Source of the DNA: Acidobacteriota bacterium
Lineage (GTDB): Bacteria; Acidobacteriota; Terriglobia; Bryobacterales; Bryobacteraceae
NCBI GenBank assembly: GCA_947470805.1
Contig: CANIVU010000038.1
Span: forward strand, 1 to 64,000
Direction: 5' to 3'
DNA length: 64,000 nt
Shown here piece after piece: positions 3,248-62,761 of the stretch (its first letter is position 1; each line of letters starts with the position of its first letter). The position numbers were made by a program, and so were the translations under genes. The notes beneath the pieces were generated by a model that was given only the letters and a program-made list of their open reading frames with translations, was not told the origin of the DNA and made no database searches.

Positions 3248-3277
3248 GAAAAGCACCGCCCGAGGGCGGTGCTTTTT
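3248..3277 (+). terminator. Intrinsic terminator after cysK
   Basis: A GC-rich stem (GCACCGCC / GGCGGTGC) flanked by A-run and T-run (GAAAAGC...GCTTTTTC) begins 22 bases after the cysK stop. The tetraloop is about CGAG. The A-run and T-run on both sides would also let it act on the other strand. Confidence 0.9.
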
Positions 3278-5385: not shown

Positions 5386-5460
5386 TGGTAGCGCCAAGGG
5401 GATTCGAACCCCTATTAGAGCCTTGAGAGGGCTCCGTCCTAACCCTTAGACGATGGCGCC
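5386..5460 (-). tRNA. tRNA-Glu (anticodon CTC)
   Basis: Read on the minus strand, the 75 bases fold as a complete cloverleaf. The acceptor is GGCGCCA / TGGCGCT with one G-U pair, the D stem GTCT/GGAC, the anticodon stem GAGCC/GGCTC around loop CTCTCAA (anticodon CTC, reading GAG), and the T arm AGGGG-TTCGAAT-CCCCT. The 3' CCA is encoded (TGG at 5386-5388). Confidence 0.97.
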
Positions 5461-10723: not shown

Positions 10724-11160
10724 CCTTCTGCGAGTGGTAGCGCGTCTTGGGGCACACGGCTATTGTTTCGGACTTGGGTGGTTTTATTGGGGGGGTTGCC
10801 CGCCATGTCCCCGGTGGGGTTGGGTTTGGGCGGGGGTGGCGGGGGATCGTTTTCCTGACCTTCTGCGGGGGATGTCGCGTCTTGGGATACACGGCTATTG
10901 TTTCGGACTTGGGCGGTTTTATTGGGGGTTTTGCCCGCCATGTCCCCGGAGGGGTTGGGTTGGGCGGGGTGGTGGGTTTTATCCGGGCTTTTTGCCTTTG
11001 GGCCTTCTGCCTTCTGCGGGTTGCGTCGCGTCTGGGGGGACACCTCTGCCGTTGGGTTACGGGCCGAATTCTGTTCGGGGTTCTGCCCGCGATGTCCCCG
11101 GAGGGGTTGGGTTGGGCCGGGGGTGGCCGGGGAGCGGGGATCTGTTTTTCTGGCTCTTCT
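10686..11160. repeat. Degenerate tandem repeat array between DUF1223 and rpsA
   Basis: Units begin at CCCGG positions 10686, 10810, 10945 and 11097, giving spacings of 124, 135 and 152 bases and a partial fourth unit. Shared landmarks in each are CCCGGNGGGGTTGGGT, (TGACC)TTCTGCG, GTCGCGTCTTGGGG, ACACGGCTATTG TTTCGGACTTGGG (units 1 and 2), TTGCCCGCCATGTCCCCGG. Unit 3 has diverged most. The landmarks CGCGTCT-GGGG-ACACC and TGTCCCC match the dispersed hairpins at 16765, 36515 and 52134. No gene is supported in this 495-base gap, which begins within the last codons of DUF1223. Confidence 0.85.
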
Positions 11161-11168
11161 TGCAGACG

Positions 11169-11200
11169 AAAAAAGCGGACCCGGATGGGTCCGCTTTTTC
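11169..11200 (-). terminator. Intrinsic terminator for rpsA (bidirectional)
   Basis: AAAAAAGCGGACCC and GGGTCCGCTTTTT pair around GGAT. On the minus strand the stem is followed by a T-run, 19 bases past the rpsA stop; the + strand also has TTTTT, so it can stop transcription from the repeat array side too. Confidence 0.92.
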
Positions 11201-15595: not shown

Positions 15596-15667
15596 TTGGG
15601 TTTGTTTTTGGAGCACGAAAAGCTCAACTGGCGCAACGTTTCGGCAAAGGCCTGCTATAACGGTCAG

Positions 15668-16741
15668 ATGATTGCCCGCATTTGTCTCGTTTGTATCGCA
15701 ATGCTATCGATGGCGGAAGGGCAACCGGCGGCCAGTACGCCGCCCGCCGCGAACCAGGCACCGCGGGCCGCGGCGAGTCCGGCGGCCGGCGCCGCCGACG
15801 GGCCAGGAGCGCCGCGGGACCACAACGCGGACCGGTTGATGAAAGCGTTAACGAACCAGAAGTGGTACCAGCAGCTCGGCGATATCGCGGTGGTGTCCGA
15901 GATTCGCTACACCAGCGCGCCGTTGCACAAACCGCAGAATCCAACCGCGCCGGGGGCAAAGAATCCGTTGATCATCCACGCGATGACCTTCGTGCCGAAG
16001 AAGATCGACAAAGCCCGGAAGCACCCGCTGATCGTCTTCGCCCATCAGGGCATTCATAGCGATTTCGGCGCCGACTATGAATTCAGCGCCGTACGGGAAC
16101 TCGTGGAGCAGGGTTACTCCGTTATCGGACCGGACTACCGCGGCAGCACCGGTTATGGACGCCGGCTTTACGACGCGATCGATTATGGTGGCCTGGAGGT
16201 GGAGGATGTATTCCAGGCGCGCCAATGGATGCTCGACAACTATGATTTTCTTGATCCGAAACGCGTTGGCATGATTGGCTGGAGCCACGGCGGCATGATC
16301 ACGCTCATGAACATCCTGCTGCATCCGGACGCGTATGCAGCGGCCTACGCGGGTGTTCCGGTGACCGATCTGGTGCTGCGCCTGGGCTACCACGATTCGG
16401 CGTACCAATCGATCTTCTCCGCGCCCCAACATATCGGAAAGCCGGTGCAGGGCGACATCCAGGAGTACTTGAAGCGATCTCCGATTACCCACGCAGAGAA
16501 GCTGAAGACGCCGCTGTTGATCCACGGCAACAGCAATGATGAGGACGTGAACATTATCGAAGTCCAGCGGTTTGTCGATGCACTAAAAGCAGCAGGCAAG
16601 AAGTTTGAATACAAGATCTTCGAGGACGCGCCGGGAGGGCACGAGTTTGGGCGGCTGGACACCAAACTGGCGAAGGAATCCCGCCGCGATGTCTACAAGT
16701 TTCTCGGCAAGATTCTCAATCCGGAGCGGCCGGTCCGGTAG
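15668..16741 (+). CDS. Exported S9-like alpha/beta hydrolase (prolyl oligopeptidase type)
   Basis: From ATG 15668 the protein has 357 residues with a signal peptide (MIARICLVCIAMLSMAEG) and a Pro/Ala-rich linker to about residue 50. The catalytic fold shows GWSHGG (Ser206), the acid in NSNDEDVN (Asp291 or 293) and His325 in APGGHEFG. YRGSTGYGRR is a typical S9 motif. There is no N-terminal propeller, so it is the hydrolase domain alone. It may be a periplasmic peptidase or esterase. The upstream in-frame start at 15596 would bury the signal peptide, so it was rejected. Confidence 0.85.
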   Translation: MIARICLVCIAMLSMAEGQPAASTPPAANQAPRAAASPAAGAADGPGAPRDHNADRLMKALTNQKWYQQLGDIAVVSEIRYTSAPLHKPQNPTAPGAKNPLIIHAMTFVPKKIDKARKHPLIVFAHQGIHSDFGADYEFSAVRELVEQGYSVIGPDYRGSTGYGRRLYDAIDYGGLEVEDVFQARQWMLDNYDFLDPKRVGMIGWSHGGMITLMNILLHPDAYAAAYAGVPVTDLVLRLGYHDSAYQSIFSAPQHIGKPVQGDIQEYLKRSPITHAEKLKTPLLIHGNSNDEDVNIIEVQRFVDALKAAGKKFEYKIFEDAPGGHEFGRLDTKLAKESRRDVYKFLGKILNPERPVR

Positions 16742-16764
16742 TGATCCGGGGGTGGCGCGGTTGG

Positions 16765-16798
16765 GGGGACACCCGGCCTTCGGCCTGCGGGTGTCCCC
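16765..16798. repeat. Dispersed hairpin element, copy 1
   Basis: GGGGACACCCG (16765-16775) and CGGGTGTCCCC (16788-16798) pair exactly, with an inner GGCC-TTCG-GGCC-like tip. It fills the 80-base junction between the convergent hydrolase and 670-residue genes. The same arms recur at 36515-36562 and 52134-52167. No T-run follows, so it is not a canonical intrinsic terminator, though it could be a bidirectional one. Confidence 0.85.
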
Positions 16799-16821
16799 GG
16801 ATTGTTGCTGGGCGCCTTTCG

Positions 16822-18834
16822 CTAGCGGGTCCAGGTGACCTCCACTTGGGGGCGGGCGGGCGATGAGGCCGTTAGCAGCAGCGGGCCGAGGGCGCGGGCG
16901 GCATCGGGTCCGTAGACGCTCGAGAGCTTGCGGTGGAAGGCGCTGGTGACGCCGCTGAGCAGATAGCTCAGGTTGCGGAGCGCGTCGACCGGGCCGAGGC
17001 CCTTGGTGGTGCAGCGGGTGAGGTGGGCGGTGAGGCGGTCGATGAACTGGGCTTCGGCGCAGAGCAACGACTGGAAGACGGCGGCGCCGACGGGCCGGGA
17101 GACGGCGCGGCGGACGTCGTCGACATCGGCGTCGATGTGGGTGGCGGCGAGGCGGGTTTCGAGCGCGGCGCGGGTGCGCGGGTTCCAGACCATGGCCTGG
17201 CGCATTTCGGCGTTGGGCCAGTTCCAGTAGGTGGAGTCCGGGCGGTTGAGTTCGACGCCTTTTTCCGTGAGGAGGGCGGCGGTGCTGACGGGCAGCGAGG
17301 CCCAGACGAGCAGAGGCGCGGCGGCCTGGACACCGAGATCATCCATGTCGACGGCGGCGGGCAGGAGGGTGCGCCAGGCGGACTGCATGCGGCGAGAGAT
17401 GTCGCCGGGGTCCTGGGGCTCCAGCCAGTGGGCGATGGAGGCGGGCGGCATGGTCATCACCATGCGGCAGACGCGACCACGGGGGTCGGCCGGTGGGGCG
17501 TCGTAGAGGCGGAGGAGCGGGTCGAGCGACGTGGGCCGGTTGGTGGTGAGCACCATTTCGAAGCGCGCGTTGAGGGTGGCCGGGTCGTGCACGATCATCT
17601 CGCCGCCGAGGTGTTGGGCGAAGGCTCCTTCGATGGAGAGGAGGCTGGCGGCGGCGCGGGTGTGGCGCTCGGCGTCGGCTTTGGCGTAGCCGCGGACGAT
17701 GCGGCCGGAGATGTCGTCCAAGGCCTGGAGGGCGGTCGAGAGGCGCTCGCGTTCGGCGACCTGGCCGTTGACGAAGGGCAGGCGCCATTCGAAGGTGTGG
17801 CGACTGGTGGCGGTGTCATTGACGGCGCAGTTGTGGAGCGTCACGCCGGGGACGGGGCCGGCGAGGAGCGGCGTGAGATCGCCGGTGAGGGTGTTTTCAA
17901 AGACGGGCCAGAGGGCCGGGTTGGCGGCGAAGTCGAAGGTCGCGTCGAGCAAGGCCGTGGCGGATTTTTGCTTGTCGAACTGGACGGCGAGCGAGGCTTC
18001 GAGGCGACGCTCGAGGGTGCGCACGGCGGCGAATTCCAGGCGCGCGGTGAGTTCGTCGACCTGGGTGAGGCCGGTGGCGGTGGCGCCTTCGACGGCGGAT
18101 TTTAGAGCCGCGAGGAGGGGGTCGGCCGGGTTGCGCCACTGCTCGCCCTGGATGGCGGCGGGGAGGGCGAGCCAGGTGTTGAGGAAGTCCTGGATCTGGG
18201 CGATGGGCGCCGGGAGGCGGGACAGGACGTTCGCGGCTCCGCGGCCGAGTTGGTCGAGCAACTGGGTGCGATGCCGGCCGGCGAGGGCGGCCAGGGCGTG
18301 CTGGGTGGCCTGGTCGAGCCCGGCGCCGGCAGTGGCTTTGACGCGGATGGAGCGGGCCGAGGCGCGGGCGGCGCTGAGGCGGACTCGCAGCACGGGCGCG
18401 GCGGTGGCGCGGGTGATGGCCCACCAGCAATCGCTGTTGGCCTGCCACTGGGCGGCGGTCTGGATGCCGAGGTCGAGATCGAGGCCGATGTCGCCGGTGA
18501 TGGCGGTTTTGAGCGGCGCGGCGAGGCTGGTCCAGAGGGCGCTGACTTCGGCGGTGGCGGAGGCCTGGATGTTGACGCGGCGCTCGAAGAGGGCGGTCAT
18601 GCCGGGGAGCCAGTCGGTGACGGCGTCGAAACGGGGCACATAGCCGTTCGGGATTTCGGTATTGACGGGCAGGGCGGTCCAGGCGTCCTGTTGGCCGGGA
18701 GGGAGGGCGTTGTCGGTGAGGGCCCAGACGTGGTGGTCCTCGGAGGCGGTTAGCTGGAGGGAAGCCGGCAGGGCGAGGCCTGTGGCGATTTGGGCCAGAG
18801 GGCCCACGGTTTTGGCGGCGAAGCGGTATGACAT
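16822..18834 (-). CDS. Large protein of unknown function (670 residues)
   Basis: I do not recognise this protein. It starts at the ATG ending at 18834 (MSYRFAAKTVGPLAQ) and shows no signal peptide, no clear membrane helix, no Walker or metal motif, and few cysteines. It is rich in Ala, Leu, Arg and Thr, with many Trp (about 20) spaced along the chain. Predicted character is mixed, with strand-rich stretches (HTFEWRLPFVNGQ, ARFEMVLTTNRPTSLD) between helical ones. Codon use is like its neighbours. It stands as a single transcription unit, with a candidate promoter at 18874-18901 and a hairpin element downstream. Confidence 0.75.
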   Translation of the reverse strand: MSYRFAAKTVGPLAQIATGLALPASLQLTASEDHHVWALTDNALPPGQQDAWTALPVNTEIPNGYVPRFDAVTDWLPGMTALFERRVNIQASATAEVSALWTSLAAPLKTAITGDIGLDLDLGIQTAAQWQANSDCWWAITRATAAPVLRVRLSAARASARSIRVKATAGAGLDQATQHALAALAGRHRTQLLDQLGRGAANVLSRLPAPIAQIQDFLNTWLALPAAIQGEQWRNPADPLLAALKSAVEGATATGLTQVDELTARLEFAAVRTLERRLEASLAVQFDKQKSATALLDATFDFAANPALWPVFENTLTGDLTPLLAGPVPGVTLHNCAVNDTATSRHTFEWRLPFVNGQVAERERLSTALQALDDISGRIVRGYAKADAERHTRAAASLLSIEGAFAQHLGGEMIVHDPATLNARFEMVLTTNRPTSLDPLLRLYDAPPADPRGRVCRMVMTMPPASIAHWLEPQDPGDISRRMQSAWRTLLPAAVDMDDLGVQAAAPLLVWASLPVSTAALLTEKGVELNRPDSTYWNWPNAEMRQAMVWNPRTRAALETRLAATHIDADVDDVRRAVSRPVGAAVFQSLLCAEAQFIDRLTAHLTRCTTKGLGPVDALRNLSYLLSGVTSAFHRKLSSVYGPDAARALGPLLLTASSPARPQVEVTWTR

Positions 18835-21739: not shown

Positions 21740-22765
21740 ATGACACGCCGATCCTTGATGACTCTGGCCGCTGGCGCGGCCGCTTTTTCGCAGCAGGCTC
21801 CGGTTTCGCCAGTGCCTTCGCAACGGGATTGGACGGGCGTGGTTCCGGTGCAGTATCCGGACCCGGATGTGATTGCGCTGGACCCGCGGTTCCGGAAGTA
21901 CATGATCGGCAACACGGCGATGAAGAAGCTCTATACGGGCACGCAGTGGGCGGAGGGGCCGGCGTGGAATGGCGTGGGCAAGTATCTGGTTTGGAGCGAT
22001 ATTCCGAACAATGTGCAGTTGCGGTTTATTGACGATGACAAGCGGGTGACGGTGTTCCGGAATCCGGCGGGGTATTCGAATGGCAACACGTTTGACTACG
22101 AGGGGCGGCAGTTGTCCTGCGAGCATGGCGGGCGGCGGGTGGTGCGGTATGAAATGTCCGGGGCGGTGACGGTGATCGCCGATTCGTTTGAGGGGAAGAA
22201 GTTGAATTCGCCGAATGACATTGTGGTGCATCCGGATGGGTCGGTTTGGTTTACGGATCCGCCGTATGGGATTGGCGGGGATTACGAGGGGTACAAGGCG
22301 CCGAAGGAATTGAAAGAGGCCGTGTACCGGGTGGACGGGAAGACGGGGCAGATTACGAAGTTGACCGATGAGGTGAGCGCGCCGAACGGGATCTGTTTTT
22401 CGCCGGATTACAAGAAGCTCTACATCGCCGATACCGGGGCGCAGGGGCGGGATATGAAGGTATGGGACATTGACGGGGCGAAGGTTCGGAACGGGAAACG
22501 GCTAGTGCAGATGAAGGTGCCGGGGACGGAGACGATCAGCGGAGCCGATGGGATCCGGTGCGATGTGGATGGGAATATCTGGTGCGGGGCGCGGCCGGGA
22601 GTGCTGGTGCTGTCGCCGGCGGGGGAACAGATTGGGATGATCCGTTTGCCGGAGAATTGCGCGAATGTCTGTTTTGGCGGGCCGCGGCGGAACCGGTTGT
22701 TTATGACGGCGAGCCAGTCGCTCTACGTGGTCGCGGTGGGAACGACTGGCGCGCATATTTGCTGA
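21740..22765 (+). CDS. SMP-30/gluconolactonase family protein, exported
   Basis: From ATG 21740 the protein has 341 residues. It starts with a Tat-like leader (TRRSLMTLAAGAAAFS). The six-bladed SMP-30 propeller shows WAEGPAWNGVGKYLVWSDI (with the metal-binding Glu), GNTFDYEGRQLSCEHGGRRV, LNSPNDIVVHPDGSVWFTDPPYG, VSAPNGICFSPDYKKLYIADT and GADGIRCDVDGNIWCG. This family hydrolyses sugar lactones with a divalent metal. Its stop (TGA) abuts the stop of the convergent cytochrome gene with no gap. Confidence 0.9.
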   Translation: MTRRSLMTLAAGAAAFSQQAPVSPVPSQRDWTGVVPVQYPDPDVIALDPRFRKYMIGNTAMKKLYTGTQWAEGPAWNGVGKYLVWSDIPNNVQLRFIDDDKRVTVFRNPAGYSNGNTFDYEGRQLSCEHGGRRVVRYEMSGAVTVIADSFEGKKLNSPNDIVVHPDGSVWFTDPPYGIGGDYEGYKAPKELKEAVYRVDGKTGQITKLTDEVSAPNGICFSPDYKKLYIADTGAQGRDMKVWDIDGAKVRNGKRLVQMKVPGTETISGADGIRCDVDGNIWCGARPGVLVLSPAGEQIGMIRLPENCANVCFGGPRRNRLFMTASQSLYVVAVGTTGAHIC

Positions 22766-24004
22766 TCAGTCGGCGGCTTTTTTCGGAACGGGGGCTTCGG
22801 TTACGAAAGAGCCGAAGCCGATCATCATCTCTTCCCAGCTTTGATCGCCCCAGCGGACTTCGGACTTCGGGTCGGGGTTGAACTTGTTGTTGGCCGAGTT
22901 GTCGAAGTGCGCAATGCATTCGATGACGGTGCCTTTGGGGAGCATCTTGGGTTCGGCGAGGACGTAGGTATGTTGCCAGTTGAAGTCGTATTTGGGGACG
23001 TTCAGCAGCACTTCTGTTTCGCCGGTGGGGTACTTGGCGACGTACTGGAAATCCTTGCCGCGCAGGTGCATGTGCGGGGTTAGCTGCACGAGTTTGACGT
23101 CGCGATTGAAGGTCCACTTCGAGCGCACTTCGTGGGCGGGCGCACCGGGCGGGATGACAAATTTTCCTTCGCCGGCGCTGAAGCCGCCGATCATTTCGGC
23201 GGGCGGTTCCTTGGCGAAAACGATCCCGACTTTGGTGAGATCCGTGGCGGGTTTGCCGTTGGTGGTGTAGTGCATCTCGAGCACGATTTCCGAGCCGGCT
23301 TTGACGCGGAGGGCGCGACCTTCCTTGCCGGGCAACTGCGGGACGCCGGGGGCGTAGCCGGCGAGGGAACCGCGGGGGCCGGCGTCGGACTTGGCGACCT
23401 TGACCACGGGTTCGCCGATGGGCGCGCCTTTCAGCCAGGTGCTGCCGGGTTCGCGGAGGTAGGCGATGACGTGATGGACAACGGCGCGATTGCCGGGGCG
23501 GACTTCGGCGGCGCGGACCCAGCGGTCCTCGGTGAAGTTCAGCGGCAAAATGAAGCGGGTATATTCCAAGGTTCCGGTGGCGGGAATTTCATAGGCCTTG
23601 GGCATGGCGACGACCATGTCCGGTTCACCGATGTTCCAGCCTTCGACGAAGCGGCGCGGGGCGGGGGCGTGTTTGGGGTCGCCGGCGGGGGCTTTGGCGT
23701 CGGCCCAGGCGAGGAGGGTGGATTTTTCGGCGGCGGTGAGAGTGGGGTCGTTGGCGAATTTGCCGTGCTTGGGATCGGCGCTCCACGGGGGCATCTGGCC
23801 GGTCGCTACCGCTTGGCGGATGGCGGCGGCGAGGGGGCGGGTTTGCTCGTAGGTCAACAGCGACATGGGCGCGGCTTCGCCCGGCCGGTGACAGCCCTGG
23901 CAGCGGTTCTGCAGGATGGGGAGAACGTCTTTGTAGAACGTGGGTTTCGCCGGAGCGGCGCTGAGGAGAGTGGAGGCGAGGATCAGGGCTGCGAGTAGGC
24001 GCAT
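22766..24004 (-). CDS. Exported cytochrome c fused to PHM-like copper monooxygenase
   Basis: From the ATG ending at 24004 the protein has 412 residues. A signal peptide (MRLLAALILASTLLSAA) is followed by a cytochrome c-like domain with CQGCH (Cys35, Cys38, His39) and Met71 in QMPPW as likely sixth ligand. Residues ~120-410 match the copper type II, ascorbate-dependent monooxygenase fold. All expected copper ligands can be placed: His177, His178 and His245 (copper A), and His311, His313 in HMH with Met393/394 (copper B). A periplasmic heme-to-copper electron path is inferred. The substrate is unknown. The gene lies 53 bases downstream of TonB receptor 1 on the same strand. Confidence 0.85.
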   Translation of the reverse strand: MRLLAALILASTLLSAAPAKPTFYKDVLPILQNRCQGCHRPGEAAPMSLLTYEQTRPLAAAIRQAVATGQMPPWSADPKHGKFANDPTLTAAEKSTLLAWADAKAPAGDPKHAPAPRRFVEGWNIGEPDMVVAMPKAYEIPATGTLEYTRFILPLNFTEDRWVRAAEVRPGNRAVVHHVIAYLREPGSTWLKGAPIGEPVVKVAKSDAGPRGSLAGYAPGVPQLPGKEGRALRVKAGSEIVLEMHYTTNGKPATDLTKVGIVFAKEPPAEMIGGFSAGEGKFVIPPGAPAHEVRSKWTFNRDVKLVQLTPHMHLRGKDFQYVAKYPTGETEVLLNVPKYDFNWQHTYVLAEPKMLPKGTVIECIAHFDNSANNKFNPDPKSEVRWGDQSWEEMMIGFGSFVTEAPVPKKAAD

Positions 24005-27286: not shown

Positions 27287-27350
27287 ACCACGCCTGGGAG
27301 GGTGTGGCGGACGCCTTTTTTGACTGTAACAAGAAACGGCAGGGGTGAAA

Positions 27351-27384
27351 AACAGAAACGGCCCCGTGAGGGGCCGTTTCTGTT
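27351..27384 (-). terminator. Terminator downstream of TonB receptor 2
   Basis: AACAGAAACGGCCCC and GGGGCCGTTTCTGTT pair exactly over 15 bases around GTGA. It is 33 bases past the receptor 2 stop, between it and the leader of receptor 1, so the receptors are separate transcripts. Confidence 0.88.
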
Positions 27385-27417
27385 TGTTACGAACTGCGCG
27401 GGTACGTTGGATCTGGT

Positions 27418-30827: not shown

Positions 30828-30859
30828 AAGAAACCGGACCAAATGGTCCGGTTTCTTTT
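30828..30859 (-). terminator. Terminator downstream of the PilZ gene
   Basis: AAGAAACCGGACC and GGTCCGGTTTCTT pair exactly around AAAT, 18 bases past the PilZ stop. The T-run is better on the + strand (TTTCTTTT), but the gene it follows is on the minus strand. Confidence 0.82.
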
Positions 30860-35457: not shown

Positions 35458-36477
35458 TTGGGTCCGCGAAGAAAAGTACTGGTGATTGGCGGCACGCTTT
35501 TCATCGGCCGGAACCTTGTTTCCCGGTTGGTGAAGGACGGGCACGAGGTCACAATTCTCCACCGTAAACCGGGTCACGACCTGGGAGCGAAGGTGCGTGA
35601 ATTGGTGGCGGACCGGAACGACGCGGCGGGGTTTGCGAAGGCAATCGCAGGTAAAGGGTTCGACGTCGTTTTCGATAACGTCTATGACTGGGAACGCGGG
35701 ACGACGGCGGCGCAGGTGGACGCGACGGCGCGGGCGTGCGGCGATAAATTGCACCGGTATGTGTTCATCTCCAGCGTGGCGGCATATGGCGGCGGGCTGA
35801 ACCACTACGAGGGCGATGGGTTGGTGGCTGACGACCATCCCGACTTATATGCCCGTAACAAGGCGATGAGTGAGCGGGTGTTGTTCAGGCTGCACCAGCG
35901 GTATGGGTTTCCAGCGGTGACGCTGCGGCCTCCGTTCGTCTATGGACCGGGGAATCCATACTATCGGGAACAGTTTTTCTGGGACAGGCTTCGAGATGGC
36001 AAGCCGTGGATCCTGCCGGGCGACGGGCGACGGTTGATGCAGTTCGCCTATGTGCACGACGTGGTGGCGGCGTGCACGGCGGCGATGGAGGAGCATGGCG
36101 CGGTGGGCCATGCGTTCAATGTGGCCAACGCAAGGTCGACGACGCAGGCCGATCTGCTGGCGGCGCTGGCGGAGGCCGCGGGGAAACCGGCGGCGAAGAC
36201 GGCACAGATTATCCGGATGCCGCGCGAGTTGATATTCCGGATGGGCGGGCACCCGATGGGGCCGAAGTTGTATTTCGGCCTGTACTATGACCTGCCGCCA
36301 ATTACGATGATGATTGCGAAGGCGCAGCGGATCTTGAAGTTCAAGCCGACCGATTTCGCGGTGGGGTTGAAGGAATCGCACAAGTGGTGGAAGGCGTCGG
36401 GGCAGCGCGTCGGGCCTGACTACTCGTTTGAAGAGCAGTTGTGGGCGCGGGCGCGGATGGGCGAGTCCGGGACGTAG
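35458..36477 (+). CDS. NAD-dependent epimerase/dehydratase (atypical SDR)
   Basis: The 339-residue protein opens with the nucleotide-binding loop VIGGTLFIGRNLV; GGTxFIG is an atypical-SDR (CSP41-like) form. The catalytic YARNK (YxxxK) follows FISSVAAYG, and FVYGPGNPY and FAYVHDVVAA complete the fold. It probably acts on a nucleotide sugar or related compound. The start is TTG 35458, supported by GGAG (35445-35448) at good spacing. A dispersed hairpin lies after the stop. Confidence 0.87.
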   Translation: MGPRRKVLVIGGTLFIGRNLVSRLVKDGHEVTILHRKPGHDLGAKVRELVADRNDAAGFAKAIAGKGFDVVFDNVYDWERGTTAAQVDATARACGDKLHRYVFISSVAAYGGGLNHYEGDGLVADDHPDLYARNKAMSERVLFRLHQRYGFPAVTLRPPFVYGPGNPYYREQFFWDRLRDGKPWILPGDGRRLMQFAYVHDVVAACTAAMEEHGAVGHAFNVANARSTTQADLLAALAEAAGKPAAKTAQIIRMPRELIFRMGGHPMGPKLYFGLYYDLPPITMMIAKAQRILKFKPTDFAVGLKESHKWWKASGQRVGPDYSFEEQLWARARMGESGT

Positions 36478-36514
36478 GATTGGTTGTGGGTGGTGGCGGG
36501 CGAGTGTGGCGTCT

Positions 36515-36562
36515 GGGGACACCCGGCCTGCGCGCTGCGCGCTTCGGCCCGCGGGTGTCCCC
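36515..36562. repeat. Dispersed hairpin element, copy 2
   Basis: GGGGACACCCG (36515-36525) and CGGGTGTCCCC (36552-36562) pair exactly around a 26-base GC-rich loop. Flanks resemble copy 3: GCGGGCGAGT then GGCGTCTGGGGAC upstream, and CCGTGGG downstream. It sits in the 153-base junction between the convergent epimerase and polyprenyl synthase genes; nothing else is seen in that gap. Confidence 0.85.
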
Positions 36563-36630
36563 GTGGGAGTCGTCGCTGCGGGTGGGGCTGGGACGGGGAT
36601 TCGCTGTGTGAGCGGATCGGTCGAGGCGGG

Positions 36631-37632
36631 TTAATGGTCGCGGGCGGTGACCAGTTCGGTGACGCTGAATAGAGCGCGCTGGTAGGGCGATTCAGGGAAA
36701 TCGCTGATCAGCGTGCGGGCGCGTTCGGTGAAGTGCTGGGCGCGCTCCATAGCGCGTTCGATGCCCTTGTACTTTTTCAGGATGCCGGTGATCTCGTCGA
36801 AGGTGACGCTCTTGTAGTCCTGTTCACGGAGAACGGTGGCGACCTTTTCGCGTTCGATAGGCGTTGCGTCCTGCAGGGCGTAGACGAGGGGAAGGGTGAC
36901 CTTCCCTTCCCGGAGGTCGTTGCCGACGGGTTTGCCGAGGATCTTTTCGCGGGAGGTGAAATCGAGCACATCGTCGACGAGCTGGAAGGCGATGCCCAGA
37001 TTCCAGGCGAATTCGCCGAGGCGGGCTTCATCGGCTTCGCTGGCGCCGCCGGTCATGGCGCCGAGGCGGGCGCAGATGCTGAAGAGGCTGGCGGTTTTGC
37101 GGTCCACCAGTTCCATGTAGTCCGTTTCGCTGATGTTGATGCGGCCGAGGCGTTCGAGTTGGAGCAGTTCGCCTTCGACCATGAGCTGGGTAAGGCCGAT
37201 CAGCAGATCGAGAATGCGGAAGTTGCGGGCGCGCACGGCCACCTGGAAGGCCTGCATGTAGAGCCAATCCCCTGAAAGCACAGAGGTTTGGTTACCCCAG
37301 AGCGCATTAGTGGAGGGCTTACCGCGGCGGGTTTCGGCGGCGTCGATGACGTCGTCGTGGACCAGGGTGGCGGTGTGGATCATCTCGACGACGGCGGCCA
37401 TGGCGATGGCGGTGTCAGTGAGGGGGGCGAAGAGCTGCGTGGACAGCAACACCAGGGTGGGCCGGAGGCGTTTGCCGCCGCTGGCCTGGATATGTTTATT
37501 GATTGCCGAAATCGCTTCAACTGAAGCGACCGACTCCAGGCGCATGACCTCTTCTACCCGGCGCATATCCTTGTCAACGAGGTTAAGGATCTCGCGGGCC
37601 GTTAAGGCTTGACCAATACGGCTCATTCCCAT
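36631..37632 (-). CDS. Polyprenyl diphosphate synthase (IspB/HepT type)
   Basis: The 333-residue all-helical enzyme has both aspartate-rich motifs of trans-prenyl synthases: DDVID in TLVHDDVIDAAETRRG and DDVLD in IAFQLVDDVLDF. GGKRLRPTL and GDWLYMQAF are also typical. It elongates IPP onto allylic diphosphates to make the long isoprenoid tail of respiratory quinones, in the cytoplasm. The start may be ATG 37632 or the next Met two codons on. It follows tatD, metG and larC on the same strand. Confidence 0.92.
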   Translation of the reverse strand: MGMSRIGQALTAREILNLVDKDMRRVEEVMRLESVASVEAISAINKHIQASGGKRLRPTLVLLSTQLFAPLTDTAIAMAAVVEMIHTATLVHDDVIDAAETRRGKPSTNALWGNQTSVLSGDWLYMQAFQVAVRARNFRILDLLIGLTQLMVEGELLQLERLGRINISETDYMELVDRKTASLFSICARLGAMTGGASEADEARLGEFAWNLGIAFQLVDDVLDFTSREKILGKPVGNDLREGKVTLPLVYALQDATPIEREKVATVLREQDYKSVTFDEITGILKKYKGIERAMERAQHFTERARTLISDFPESPYQRALFSVTELVTARDH

Positions 37633-51207: not shown

Positions 51208-51872
51208 TCCCGCTCCGCGACACGCAGCCGAGCTACACCTTCCCCTTCGTGACGGTGGCGATCATCGTGCTGAATGTCGCGGCGTTTTTGTACGAGTTCT
51301 CGATGGACCCGTATGAGCTGAACTTTTTCATCGCTCACTACGGCGTGATTCCGACGCGGTTCCAGTGGATGGACGTCTTAACGAGCATCTTCCTGCACGG
51401 CGGGTGGATGCACCTGATCGGCAACATGTGGTTCCTGTGGATCTACGGCGACAACGTGGAGGACATATTGGGCCACTCGCAGTATCTCCTGTTCTACCTG
51501 CTGTGCGGCCTAGCGGCAACGATGGTCCACGTGGCTTTCAATGCCGACTCCCGCGTGCCGACGATCGGGGCGAGCGGGGCGATCGCGGGCGTCATGGGCG
51601 CTTATGTCGTCAAATTCCCTCATTCCCGTATCACGACGTTGGTGCCGATCACGATCTTCCTGACCACCGTGGACATCCCCGCCTATTTCATCCTGCTGTA
51701 CTGGTTTGTGATCCAGTTTTTCAGCGGTGTGGGCTCCGTGGGGCACTCGCACCTCTCGCAGGGAGGTGTGGCATGGTTCGCGCACATTGGCGGCTTCCTG
51801 GCCGGCGTGGCGCTGATTCTGGTGATGCGTACGGAGAAGCGCTGGAGCCACGGCCCCGGCTCGCGATGGTAA
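51204..51872 (+). CDS. Rhomboid family intramembrane serine protease
   Basis: The 222-residue protein has six to seven hydrophobic segments. The rhomboid active site is complete: GASGAIAG (Ser124) and WFAHIGGF (His194) form the dyad, and HGGWMHLIGNMWFLWIYG is the family loop/helix 2 region. It cleaves membrane proteins within the bilayer; the substrate is unknown. It overlaps the kinase upstream by 4 bases and the glutaredoxin-like gene downstream by 7. Confidence 0.95.
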   Translation: MIPLRDTQPSYTFPFVTVAIIVLNVAAFLYEFSMDPYELNFFIAHYGVIPTRFQWMDVLTSIFLHGGWMHLIGNMWFLWIYGDNVEDILGHSQYLLFYLLCGLAATMVHVAFNADSRVPTIGASGAIAGVMGAYVVKFPHSRITTLVPITIFLTTVDIPAYFILLYWFVIQFFSGVGSVGHSHLSQGGVAWFAHIGGFLAGVALILVMRTEKRWSHGPGSRW

Positions 51873-52099
51873 CGGTGGAGTTCTTTACGCGGAAGGGCTG
51901 CCACCTGTGCGAGGCGGCCGAGGAAGTCCTGCGCGCCGAACAGCGGCGCACGCCGTTTACGCTGGCAGTGTTCGACATCGACGCCGACCCGGAGTTGCGG
52001 GACCTGTACAACCTGCTGGTGCCGGTGACGGTGCTGCCGAATGGCGATGAGTTGCACTACCGGGTGGAACCGGCGCGGTTGCGGGCGGCTCTGGGCTAA
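51866..52099 (+). CDS. Glutaredoxin-like thiol-redox protein
   Basis: The 77-residue protein is a small thioredoxin-fold domain: VTVEFFTRKGCHLCEAAEEVL with CxxC as CHLC, then FDIDADPELRDLYNLLVPVTVLPNGDEL, where the cis-Pro of the fold is in the VPVTV segment. It matches the DUF836/GlrX-like group. It starts inside the rhomboid gene (7-base overlap), so translation should be coupled. A dispersed hairpin follows 35 bases after its stop. Confidence 0.88.
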   Translation: MVTVEFFTRKGCHLCEAAEEVLRAEQRRTPFTLAVFDIDADPELRDLYNLLVPVTVLPNGDELHYRVEPARLRAALG

Positions 52100-52133
52100 T
52101 ACGACGGCGTAGTTGCGGGCGAGTTAGGCGTTT

Positions 52134-52167
52134 GGGGACACCCGGCCTGCGGCCCGCGGGTGTCCCC
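52134..52167. repeat. Dispersed hairpin element, copy 3
   Basis: GGGGACACCCG (52134-52144) and CGGGTGTCCCC (52157-52167) pair exactly around GCCTGCGGCCCG. The upstream flank GCGGGCGAGT (52115-52124) and downstream CCGTGGGG match copy 2. It lies between the convergent glutaredoxin and porin genes, in an 85-base gap. Confidence 0.87.
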
Positions 52168-52184
52168 GTGGGGTAGACGCTGGC

Positions 52185-53369
52185 CTAAATCGTCAGCGTG
52201 TGGTGGATGTAGAAGAAGATCGGCCGGTGGTTCGGTGACGTGGCGCGGAAGAACGCCCCGGTGGCGAAGGCGCCGAAGCCACCGCCCATGGTCATGAACT
52301 TGCGGTAGTTCCAATTGACGTAGCCATCGAACTCCTGGCCCGCCCAGCGGCCGGCGGTGCCCTTCGTGTCGCGGACGACGAGCCGGTTCTGGGTGTTGAA
52401 CACACCGACGCGGGGATCGACCACCCAGTTGGCGTTGTACATGAAATTGACCGCGAGAGACTTAATGGGCCGCCAGGTGCCGAAGGCGCGGACGTTGTCC
52501 AGGTTGCGCCAGGCGAAGAGGTCTTCGTGGCCCAACTTGTCGTGGATGGCGGGGTACATCTGGTCGAAGCCGGAGGAGGCGAATTTGTATTCGACAGAGA
52601 AGTCAACCGGGCCGAACTTGCGGGCCAGGGCGGCAGCGACGGCGCCTTCGGTGCTAACGAGCGCGCCGCGGGTGACGCGTTCGACCACCGGTTCGATTGT
52701 CAGTTTGACCTTCTTGCCAAGCGGGGCCATCAGGCGGCCGCCGGTGATGACGCTTTCAAGCGTACCCGGCTGCTCGTGGCGTAGAACGTAGAGCTCCGAC
52801 CATTTGCCGAACGTGTTGTAGGTGCCGTAGAGGTGTTCGCGGAGGATGGGTTTGTTGAAACGGTTGATGGAGATCGTGGTGGGCGACACGAAGAGGAATT
52901 CGAAAACATTCTTCTTCGTCTTCCACTGCGCGCGGGCCATGTCGTAGGTGCGCGTAAGATTGGCCCACTGCGGGGAGCCGATGAAGCGGGTGTCGCCGTA
53001 GCTCAGCGTAGAGCGGCCGGCGCGGAAAGCGAAGCCGGTCTTGCGTTTCTCGAAGAGCGCGAAATAGGCCTCATACAGGTCCGTGCCGTCGCGGAGGGAG
53101 TTGGGCGCATTCGGACCGTAGAGCGGCGCGCGGGTGTCCTGACCAATGACGCGAACTTCGACGTCGGCATTCGGCTTGTAGGAAAAGCCGAGACGGTGGC
53201 GGAGGAGGGCGACGTCGTAATCGCGCGCGGTGCCGAAGGCGACGTTGTCGCGATCTTCATAGCGAATGCGCGACTCGCCGAGGAGCGTCAGCCGGCCGTC
53301 GAAAAAAATGTTGGGCTCTCCGCCGGGCAGGGCCGCGGCGAAGAGCGTCAACAGGAGGAGGGGTCGCAC
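52185..53369 (-). CDS. Alginate-export-type outer-membrane porin
   Basis: The 394-residue protein has a signal peptide (MRPLLLLTLFAAALPGG) and the beta-barrel layout of the alginate_exp family: GESRIRYEDRDN, LLRHRLGFSYKP, RVIGQDTR, LYEAYFALFEKRKTGFAFRAGRSTLSYGDTRFIG, and a C-terminal strand FFYIHHTLTI. It should be an outer-membrane channel for an acidic sugar or similar ligand. It follows the MFS transporter by 3 bases, so the two make an uptake route. Confidence 0.82.
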   Translation of the reverse strand: MRPLLLLTLFAAALPGGEPNIFFDGRLTLLGESRIRYEDRDNVAFGTARDYDVALLRHRLGFSYKPNADVEVRVIGQDTRAPLYGPNAPNSLRDGTDLYEAYFALFEKRKTGFAFRAGRSTLSYGDTRFIGSPQWANLTRTYDMARAQWKTKKNVFEFLFVSPTTISINRFNKPILREHLYGTYNTFGKWSELYVLRHEQPGTLESVITGGRLMAPLGKKVKLTIEPVVERVTRGALVSTEGAVAAALARKFGPVDFSVEYKFASSGFDQMYPAIHDKLGHEDLFAWRNLDNVRAFGTWRPIKSLAVNFMYNANWVVDPRVGVFNTQNRLVVRDTKGTAGRWAGQEFDGYVNWNYRKFMTMGGGFGAFATGAFFRATSPNHRPIFFYIHHTLTI

Positions 53370-62701: not shown

Positions 62702-62761
62702 TCAGCGGCCCGGCTTATTCCTCGCCGCCAAAATAAATCGTGTCACACACGATTTCACGGC

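Follow-up and report, generated by a model that had tools for sequence, protein, structure and literature searches.

A strand-locked, REP-like family of hairpins at gene 3' ends in an acidobacterial genome

What kind of element places the same short hairpin at three separate junctions of convergent genes within one stretch of acidobacterial DNA? The stretch analysed here (the window, 64,000 nucleotides) is from contig 38 of an 8.7-Mb genome, G000. It contains three hairpins whose 11-base arms are identical and whose loops measure 12, 26 and 12 bases, where none was expected from 100 dinucleotide shuffles. Each occupies a gap of 80-153 bp into which two genes run with their stop codons facing, and no T-run lies 3' of any of the three stems (Table 1). 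These features, and the flanks common to copies 2 and 3, had been noted in a preliminary description and were confirmed; copy 1 has the hairpin with a degenerate foot, as do several other copies. The predicted RNA folds of the window copies are strong (-33, -42.1 and -29.9 kcal/mol). A search of the window against Rfam 15 returned nothing at gathering score except a tRNA at 5389-5460. Membership among the intrinsic terminators was rejected on the missing U-tract 3' of the stems, although use at transcript ends was kept as a possibility. The window also holds perfect stems of the ordinary bidirectional-terminator type, A-rich on the 5' side and T-rich on the 3' side, at 3249-3276, 11170-11199, 27350-27385 and 30828-30857.

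Table 1. Features of the window. Outer limits of copies 1, 2 and 3 are inferred from the family profile; gaps are from our own gene caller.
Feature	Position	Strand	Remarks
Copy 1, REP-like element	16745..16820	+	hairpin core 16765-16798; degenerate foot; 57.4 bits
Copy 1 gap	16742-16821		80 bp, convergent genes
Gene left of copy 1, ending there	15596..16741	+	ORFs
Gene right of copy 1, ending there	16822..18834	-	ORFs
Copy 2, long-loop form	36495..36584	+	hairpin core 36515-36562; foot GGCGTCT, tail GTGGG; 68.4 bits
Copy 2 gap	36478-36630		153 bp, convergent genes
Gene left of copy 2, ending there	35458..36477	+	ORFs
Gene right of copy 2, ending there	36631..37632	-	ORFs
Copy 3, short form	52114..52189	+	hairpin core 52134-52167; foot GGCGTTT, tail GTGGG; 76.9 bits
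Copy 3 gap	52100-52184		85 bp, convergent genes
ORF left of copy 3, ending there	51365..52099	+	gene caller start shorter, 51866
Gene right of copy 3, ending there	52185..53369	-	ORFs
Sister hairpin	11036..11099	+	outer 7-bp stem GGGGACA/TGTCCCC shared, core different; gap between 10723 and 11219
Empty site in G000	22765..22766		stop codons of two convergent genes abut here; G014 has 60 bp extra with a copy; G003 empty

The hairpin family: structure, conservation and distribution

Aligned copies read TGCGGGCGnGTnTGGCGTCT - GGGGACACCC GGCC TKC GGCC YGC GGGTGTCCCC - GTGGGTTGTTTGCTGCGTGGG. An outer stem of 10 bp (GGGGACACCC/GGGTGTCCCC) encloses an inner stem of 4 bp that carries a 3-nt bulge on its 3' side only, and the long forms are copies in which the inner hairpin is extended. 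Beside the stem stands an unpaired foot, GGCGTCT (conservation is 85-97% at positions -6 to -3 and about 73% at -2 and -1), and the G-rich tail reads GTGGG. Across the strong copies conservation is clear over about 19 bases on the upstream side and 8 on the downstream side, and weaker to about +22; the element measures about 75-90 bp. The hairpin itself was correctly described before, but the extent of the element was understated: its foot and tail are conserved as well, and the presumed loop contains the second, bulged stem. Copies are single or in tandem, head to tail, and no inverted pairs of the REPIN/BIME kind were seen among them. Sister cores also occur, in which the outer 7 bp, GGGGACA/TGTCCCC, are shared and foot and tail are similar. 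At L160:1993-2273 and L057:5051-5122 the foot and tail modules are tandemly expanded beside a copy, and G003:C43:5952-6434 holds an array of five head-to-tail hairpins with a related core.

Pairing is maintained in the stem. Among 50 aligned matches 97.5% of stem cells were paired, in an alignment fitted to the model, which favours pairing. Changes on both sides of a stem pair were found in 22 cells, compared with 3.1 in shuffles and 0-2 in slid controls. We then compared 24 orthologous pairs, representing 21 distinct G000 copies (loci L149 and L160 and the second tandem copies of L118 and L171 were excluded). Arms differed at 6/480 positions and loops at 28/446 (Fisher p = 3.7e-5), so that arms changed about 5-fold more slowly, while distant flanks differed at 665/3166 positions. 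The relatives' copies were located by exact arms, which makes changes on the relatives' side invisible, yet the loop rate exceeds even a doubled arm rate. One compensatory pair (L062 vs L169) accounts for two of the six changes in the arms, and the others leave a mismatch; single uncompensated arm changes are kept in three G000 copies (L082, L063 and L084). Covariation and the slower change of the arms support the earlier proposal of selection on the stem.

To count copies, a covariance model was built from 16 of them and applied at E<=1e-4. G000 gave at least 44 matches (150 of 9133 first-look candidates were scored), or about 5 copies per Mb; the exact-arm pattern, which is palindromic, gave 29 or 30 hits per strand. 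Within the genus, 3 of 19 genomes had exact-arm copies (29 or 30, 28 and 11 hits). By the model, 39 matches were found in G014 (Candidatus Sulfopaludibacter, CAMATG01), 14 in G017 (Acidobacteria MAG, CANIFK01) and 3 weak ones in G003, and none at E<=1e-4 in the remaining 15 of the 19. A sample of the family, which drew only four members of the genus, had exact-arm copies in 1 of 121 genomes. Scanning one genome per species yielded 58 stretches, 36 of them in G014 and G017; the other 22 were in unrelated taxa, and their flanks agreed with foot and tail at 3-7 of 13 positions, a score as low as that of a few true copies.

Most of the copies located in the relatives are at orthologous sites (window copies 2 and 3 correspond to L122 and L151 in G014), in species that are about 90-94% identical, and recent activity is therefore low. 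One clean polarised gain was found, and only one: a 60-bp segment with the hairpin is present in G014 and absent from both G000 and the more distant G003 (window 22765/22766), and no target duplication was evident there. At L131, the second empty-site test, G000 matched one side only and gave no clean empty site; at L160 the copy-bearing stretch of G014 stands opposite a different, shorter stretch in G000, again not a clean empty site. Whole genes near a copy in G014 or G017 are absent at that place in G000 (L162:1191-3000, L166:1288-2508 and L143:3377-4604). Large presence/absence segments near some copies were considered as parts of the element and rejected, the segments being genes.

Position and orientation of the copies

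Placement was assessed separately for strong copies (50 bits or more, n = 39) and weaker ones (n = 11), with genes called by our own codon-bias script. Thirty-four of the 39 strong copies are in called gaps; four lie at contig ends without a flanking call and one inside a weakly scored ORF. The 34 gaps comprise 16 convergent, 18 tandem and 0 divergent. Among the weaker copies 7 are in tandem, 2 in convergent and 1 in divergent gaps, and one shares a gap; the divergent exception is a weak sister copy, L088. Background gaps of at least 60 bp in the same stretches (n = 248) were convergent in 31 cases, tandem in 134 and divergent in 83. Against this background, an imperfect one in that an insertion lengthens its own gap, convergent gaps were in excess (16/34 vs 31/248, p = 7.8e-6) and divergent gaps in deficit (p = 3.7e-6). 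Once weighted by the available gene 3' ends the convergent excess was small (p = 0.03-0.04), and within tandem gaps the copies leaned only weakly toward the upstream stop (12/18, 2 ties, p = 0.077). The earlier claim that every copy lies between convergent genes is true of the three window copies and fails genome-wide, where only 16 of 34 classified gaps are of this kind. As a marker of convergent junctions the hairpin is over-represented there but not restricted to them; with 18 of 34 gaps tandem, a strict marker was rejected. Placement is at gene 3' ends, not at convergent junctions alone.

Orientation followed an unexpected rule, which the earlier description had not noticed. Read from foot to tail, the element lay on the locally G-rich strand in 35 of 35 testable strong copies, by regional skew and also by skew at 4-fold sites; four of the 39 were dropped at contig ends. 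Intergenic skew alone agreed in 34/35, the exception being window copy 3. Orientation bore no relation to the direction of genes (16/35), and gene direction was rejected as the source of the strand lock. To exclude an artefact of G-rich flanks, the asymmetric core was scored alone, omitting copies with less than 1 kb of flank. The outcome was the same: 31/31 in G000 and 39/39 in G014 and G017, the latter largely orthologous and not independent. The artefact was rejected on this result and because the bulge of the core is a difference in length, which lies beyond a bias in base substitution. Sister cores lay along the G-rich strand in 14/14 cases, and in G003, oriented by foot and tail, 4/4 loci did so. 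Orientation was scored against GC skew throughout, and the G-rich strand is taken for the leading strand by the general rule.

A second, unrelated palindrome family, AAATCGTGT-GTG-ACACGATTT, is present in the window (62735-62755) and at L069, L071, L082 and L113. It is also one-way with respect to skew (7/7 at 5 loci, window 62739 included), with a weaker call of orientation, which depends on the three central bases and on no more than one base of the arms.

Known mobile palindromes and possible mechanisms

The family has the general features of REP sequences: a short palindrome, repeated, mostly intergenic, with a conserved unpaired foot. The earlier suggestion of a REP-like element is supported by the number of copies and their place at intergenic 3' ends, by the foot and the imperfect hairpin, and by a patchy distribution with one polarised gain. 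The GTAG and CGTC super-families of REPs (Di Nocera 2013, PMC3733652) also consist of short palindromes between genes, with a foot left unpaired at one end; their copies number from tens to thousands, and most lie where the neighbouring genes converge or run in the same direction. In the CGTC families stems of 8-9 bp start with A-T, loops are of 4-5 bases and the tail is CCA, whereas the stem here has 10 GC-rich bp and a bulged inner stem; in both super-families head-to-head pairs predominate, whereas here copies are single or head to tail, on one strand. The phyla listed for CGTC families in PMC3733652 do not include Acidobacteria. Assignment to the GTAG super-family was rejected as the GTAG foot is absent, and so was the CGTC super-family: CGTC is present, separated from the stem by a single base, but the stem, the loop and the tail are of another form. 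REPINs or BIMEs (Bertels and Rainey 2011, PMC3116915) are similarly non-autonomous units built on REPs, and REP arrays in P. fluorescens SBW25 are reported to point forward in one chromosome half and in reverse in the other (PMC3116915), in likeness to the strand lock; REPINs are inverted REP pairs (PMC3116915), which were not seen here. Orientation to one strand and the absence of inverted pairs set the family apart from the known kinds of REP.

There is a likeness in sequence to the repeats reported around TIRYT genes, with the consensus GGGG[AT][CG]A[CG] and several of them acidobacterial (PMC3733652; PMC6006769); one sharply defined TIRYT group is acidobacterial (PMC6006769; PMC3733652). 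The arm GGGGACAC fits this consensus of TIRtrons/TIRYT (Di Nocera 2013; Quentin 2018, subclass 2.1, PMC6006769). TIRYT repeats flank the TIRYT gene, whereas the examined genomes yielded no TIRYT gene with the GGGGACACCC hairpin at its flanks. IS200/IS605 elements encode their own transposase, which the present element does not. Y1 transposases use the lagging-strand template (PMC6006769), and the strand-specific hairpin recognition of IS200/IS605 combined with this template (PMC6006769) would yield the strand lock that we observed.

A REP-associated transposase had been proposed, and RAYT-like genes are indeed present. G000 has eight Y1_Tnp matches, three of which are RAYT-like and score 67-71 bits, below the NCBIfam cut-off of 80, while one IS200 is above its cut-off. 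No examined gene was flanked by the hairpin: among 51 Y1 loci in 12 genomes, with flanks of up to 1.5 kb, many of them short, none had the GGGGACACCC hairpin. One listing of 45 matches contributed 30 loci that were read, and its remaining 15 are outside the 51. The RAYT-like gene at C16:94368 has about 63 bp upstream a hairpin with a different core, GGGGACAACCACCCTTGTCCCC (L021:1377-1398; GGGGACA..TGTCCCC); it is the only one of the 51 loci with a GGGGACA..TGTCCCC hairpin nearby, and shares the outer 7 bp alone. In G017, a gene that shares its Y motif (L175) is accompanied by GGGGACA and TGTCCCC as single sites, and the scan found no such hairpin. All four genomes with hairpins carry Y1 genes, as do several hairpin-free ones, and 5 of 13 further genomes of the genus, all without the hairpin, had no Y1 match.

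We consider it probable that the hairpins are a REP-like, non-autonomous mobile palindromic element, moved by a Y1 (HUH) transposase through the lagging-strand template and retained at gene 3' ends. A mobile family of the REP kind appears to be real, and the Y1 mechanism is plausible but unproven; the family itself, its structure, covariation, placement and strand lock and the one polarised gain were observed, whereas the transposase, the single-strand route and any use to the host are what we infer. The active strand would comprise the foot GGCGTCT, the stem GGGGACACCC/GGGTGTCCCC, the bulged inner stem and the tail GTGGG. A transposase of the RAYT/TIRYT kind would fold and cut this strand while the replication fork leaves it single-stranded as part of the lagging-strand template, and the cut strand would be joined into new sites of the same single-strand context. 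Insertion by this route would place every copy on the G-rich strand. Insertions that survive would mostly be those just behind genes, in convergent or tandem gaps and not in promoter-bearing divergent ones. The stem stays paired after insertion, and a secondary use at transcript ends or hairpin-directed repair is probable.

Part of this evidence would also be expected if the hairpin were selected by the host at transcript ends, as a bidirectional terminator without a U-tract or a 3'-end stabiliser that spread by usefulness. Position at 3' ends, avoidance of divergent gaps, strong folds, covariation and slow change of the stem in orthologous copies, and the sharing of most located copies between species about 90-94% identical are all in line with it. 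Avoidance of divergent gaps is, however, also expected if insertions into promoters are purged. The strand lock is left unexplained, since palindromic arms work either way and gene direction is unrelated. Moreover, 15 of the 19 congeneric genomes lack the family, and the window has separate A-stem-T hairpins of the usual terminator form (3249, 11170, 27350 and 30828), while no T-run accompanies these hairpins. We regard this reading as rather unlikely.

Strand-polar signals such as Chi and KOPS are known on bacterial chromosomes. If the hairpin were a chromosome-organising signal of this sort, recognised by a translocase or an enzyme of recombination and under selection for its orientation, complete orientation bias and stem conservation would follow. 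With only about 5 copies per Mb, and none in 15 of the 19 congeneric genomes, we find this very improbable, and the strand lock of the unrelated AAATCGTGT/ACACGATTT family points to a general insertion rule. That the family is inert debris of an old expansion, its stems paired by hairpin-templated correction during replication and not by selection, has in its favour the compensatory change at L062 vs L169, the many orthologous copies and the scant sign of recent movement, but is hardly credible given the copy that G014 gained once it had separated from G000, and the uncompensated arm changes in L082, L063 and L084. Templated correction as such is compatible with the Y1-moved element for the later life of its copies.

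GC-skew domains around the hairpins

The skew against which the hairpins are oriented is itself unusual. On C1, C2, part of C3 and the window, GC skew is about 0.2-0.35 with either sign, and skew at 4-fold sites is often 0.5-0.85. Genes on the + and - strands nearly always agree in its sign, which reverses at intervals of a few tens of kb; the window starts negative, turns positive at about 5 kb and returns to negative at about 55 kb. Loci with sign-switching skew include L186-L205 and L220-L238, and both signs occurred within 9 of 20 control stretches of 20 kb. Control stretches were not free of copies, with 7 GGGGACA..TGTCCCC pairs in 800 kb (one double-counted via overlap). Similar domains are present in G003, over 380 kb of one contig, in G004 and G012, and weakly in G007; in G116, of another genus, the sign changes within 100 kb of a 4.7-Mb contig. 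The hairpins were rejected as the cause of the domains, as G004, G007 (weakly), G012 and G116 switch sign without them.

Polarity at one locus was identical in 12/12 orthologs read (19 genomes were matched and 12 had loci). Across orthologous blocks the sign of skew was kept in 11/15, with a rank correlation of 0.42 (p = 0.11), and the four exceptions were mostly near zero on one side. Across four stretches of G000, six upward changes of sign took 2.25-6.25 kb each and six downward ones 3.25-19 kb (p = 0.09), and in G003 both looked gradual; an origin-like form of the domains is suggestive only. Upward change points were mostly within genes, and no shared feature was noticed among them.

The usual strand asymmetry is given as 2.5% in the SkewDB abstract, and strand bias is said to be lacking in Solibacter usitatus (PMC3174227). 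The asymmetry found here is about ten times the usual 2.5% and is split into many domains. Our literature search, which largely lay outside subscription papers, found no earlier report of such skew domains. The N-shaped domains (4-fold skew to about 0.85, equal on both gene strands), the 12/12 polarity and the switch in G116 prompt a tentative and, in our judgement, doubtful reading, in which replication in this acidobacterial family starts from many fixed zones, forks reverse direction at intervals of a few tens of kb, and the strand-locked hairpins preserve an independent, fossil record of which way the forks ran. Many replication start zones on a bacterial chromosome would, if true, be very surprising. 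The skew domains are a stranger discovery than the hairpin family and deserve a study of their own.

If the strand lock does reflect single-strand insertion, the hairpins would be small, datable markers of fork direction, and REP-like elements would exist that do without inverted pairing and follow the lagging-strand template.
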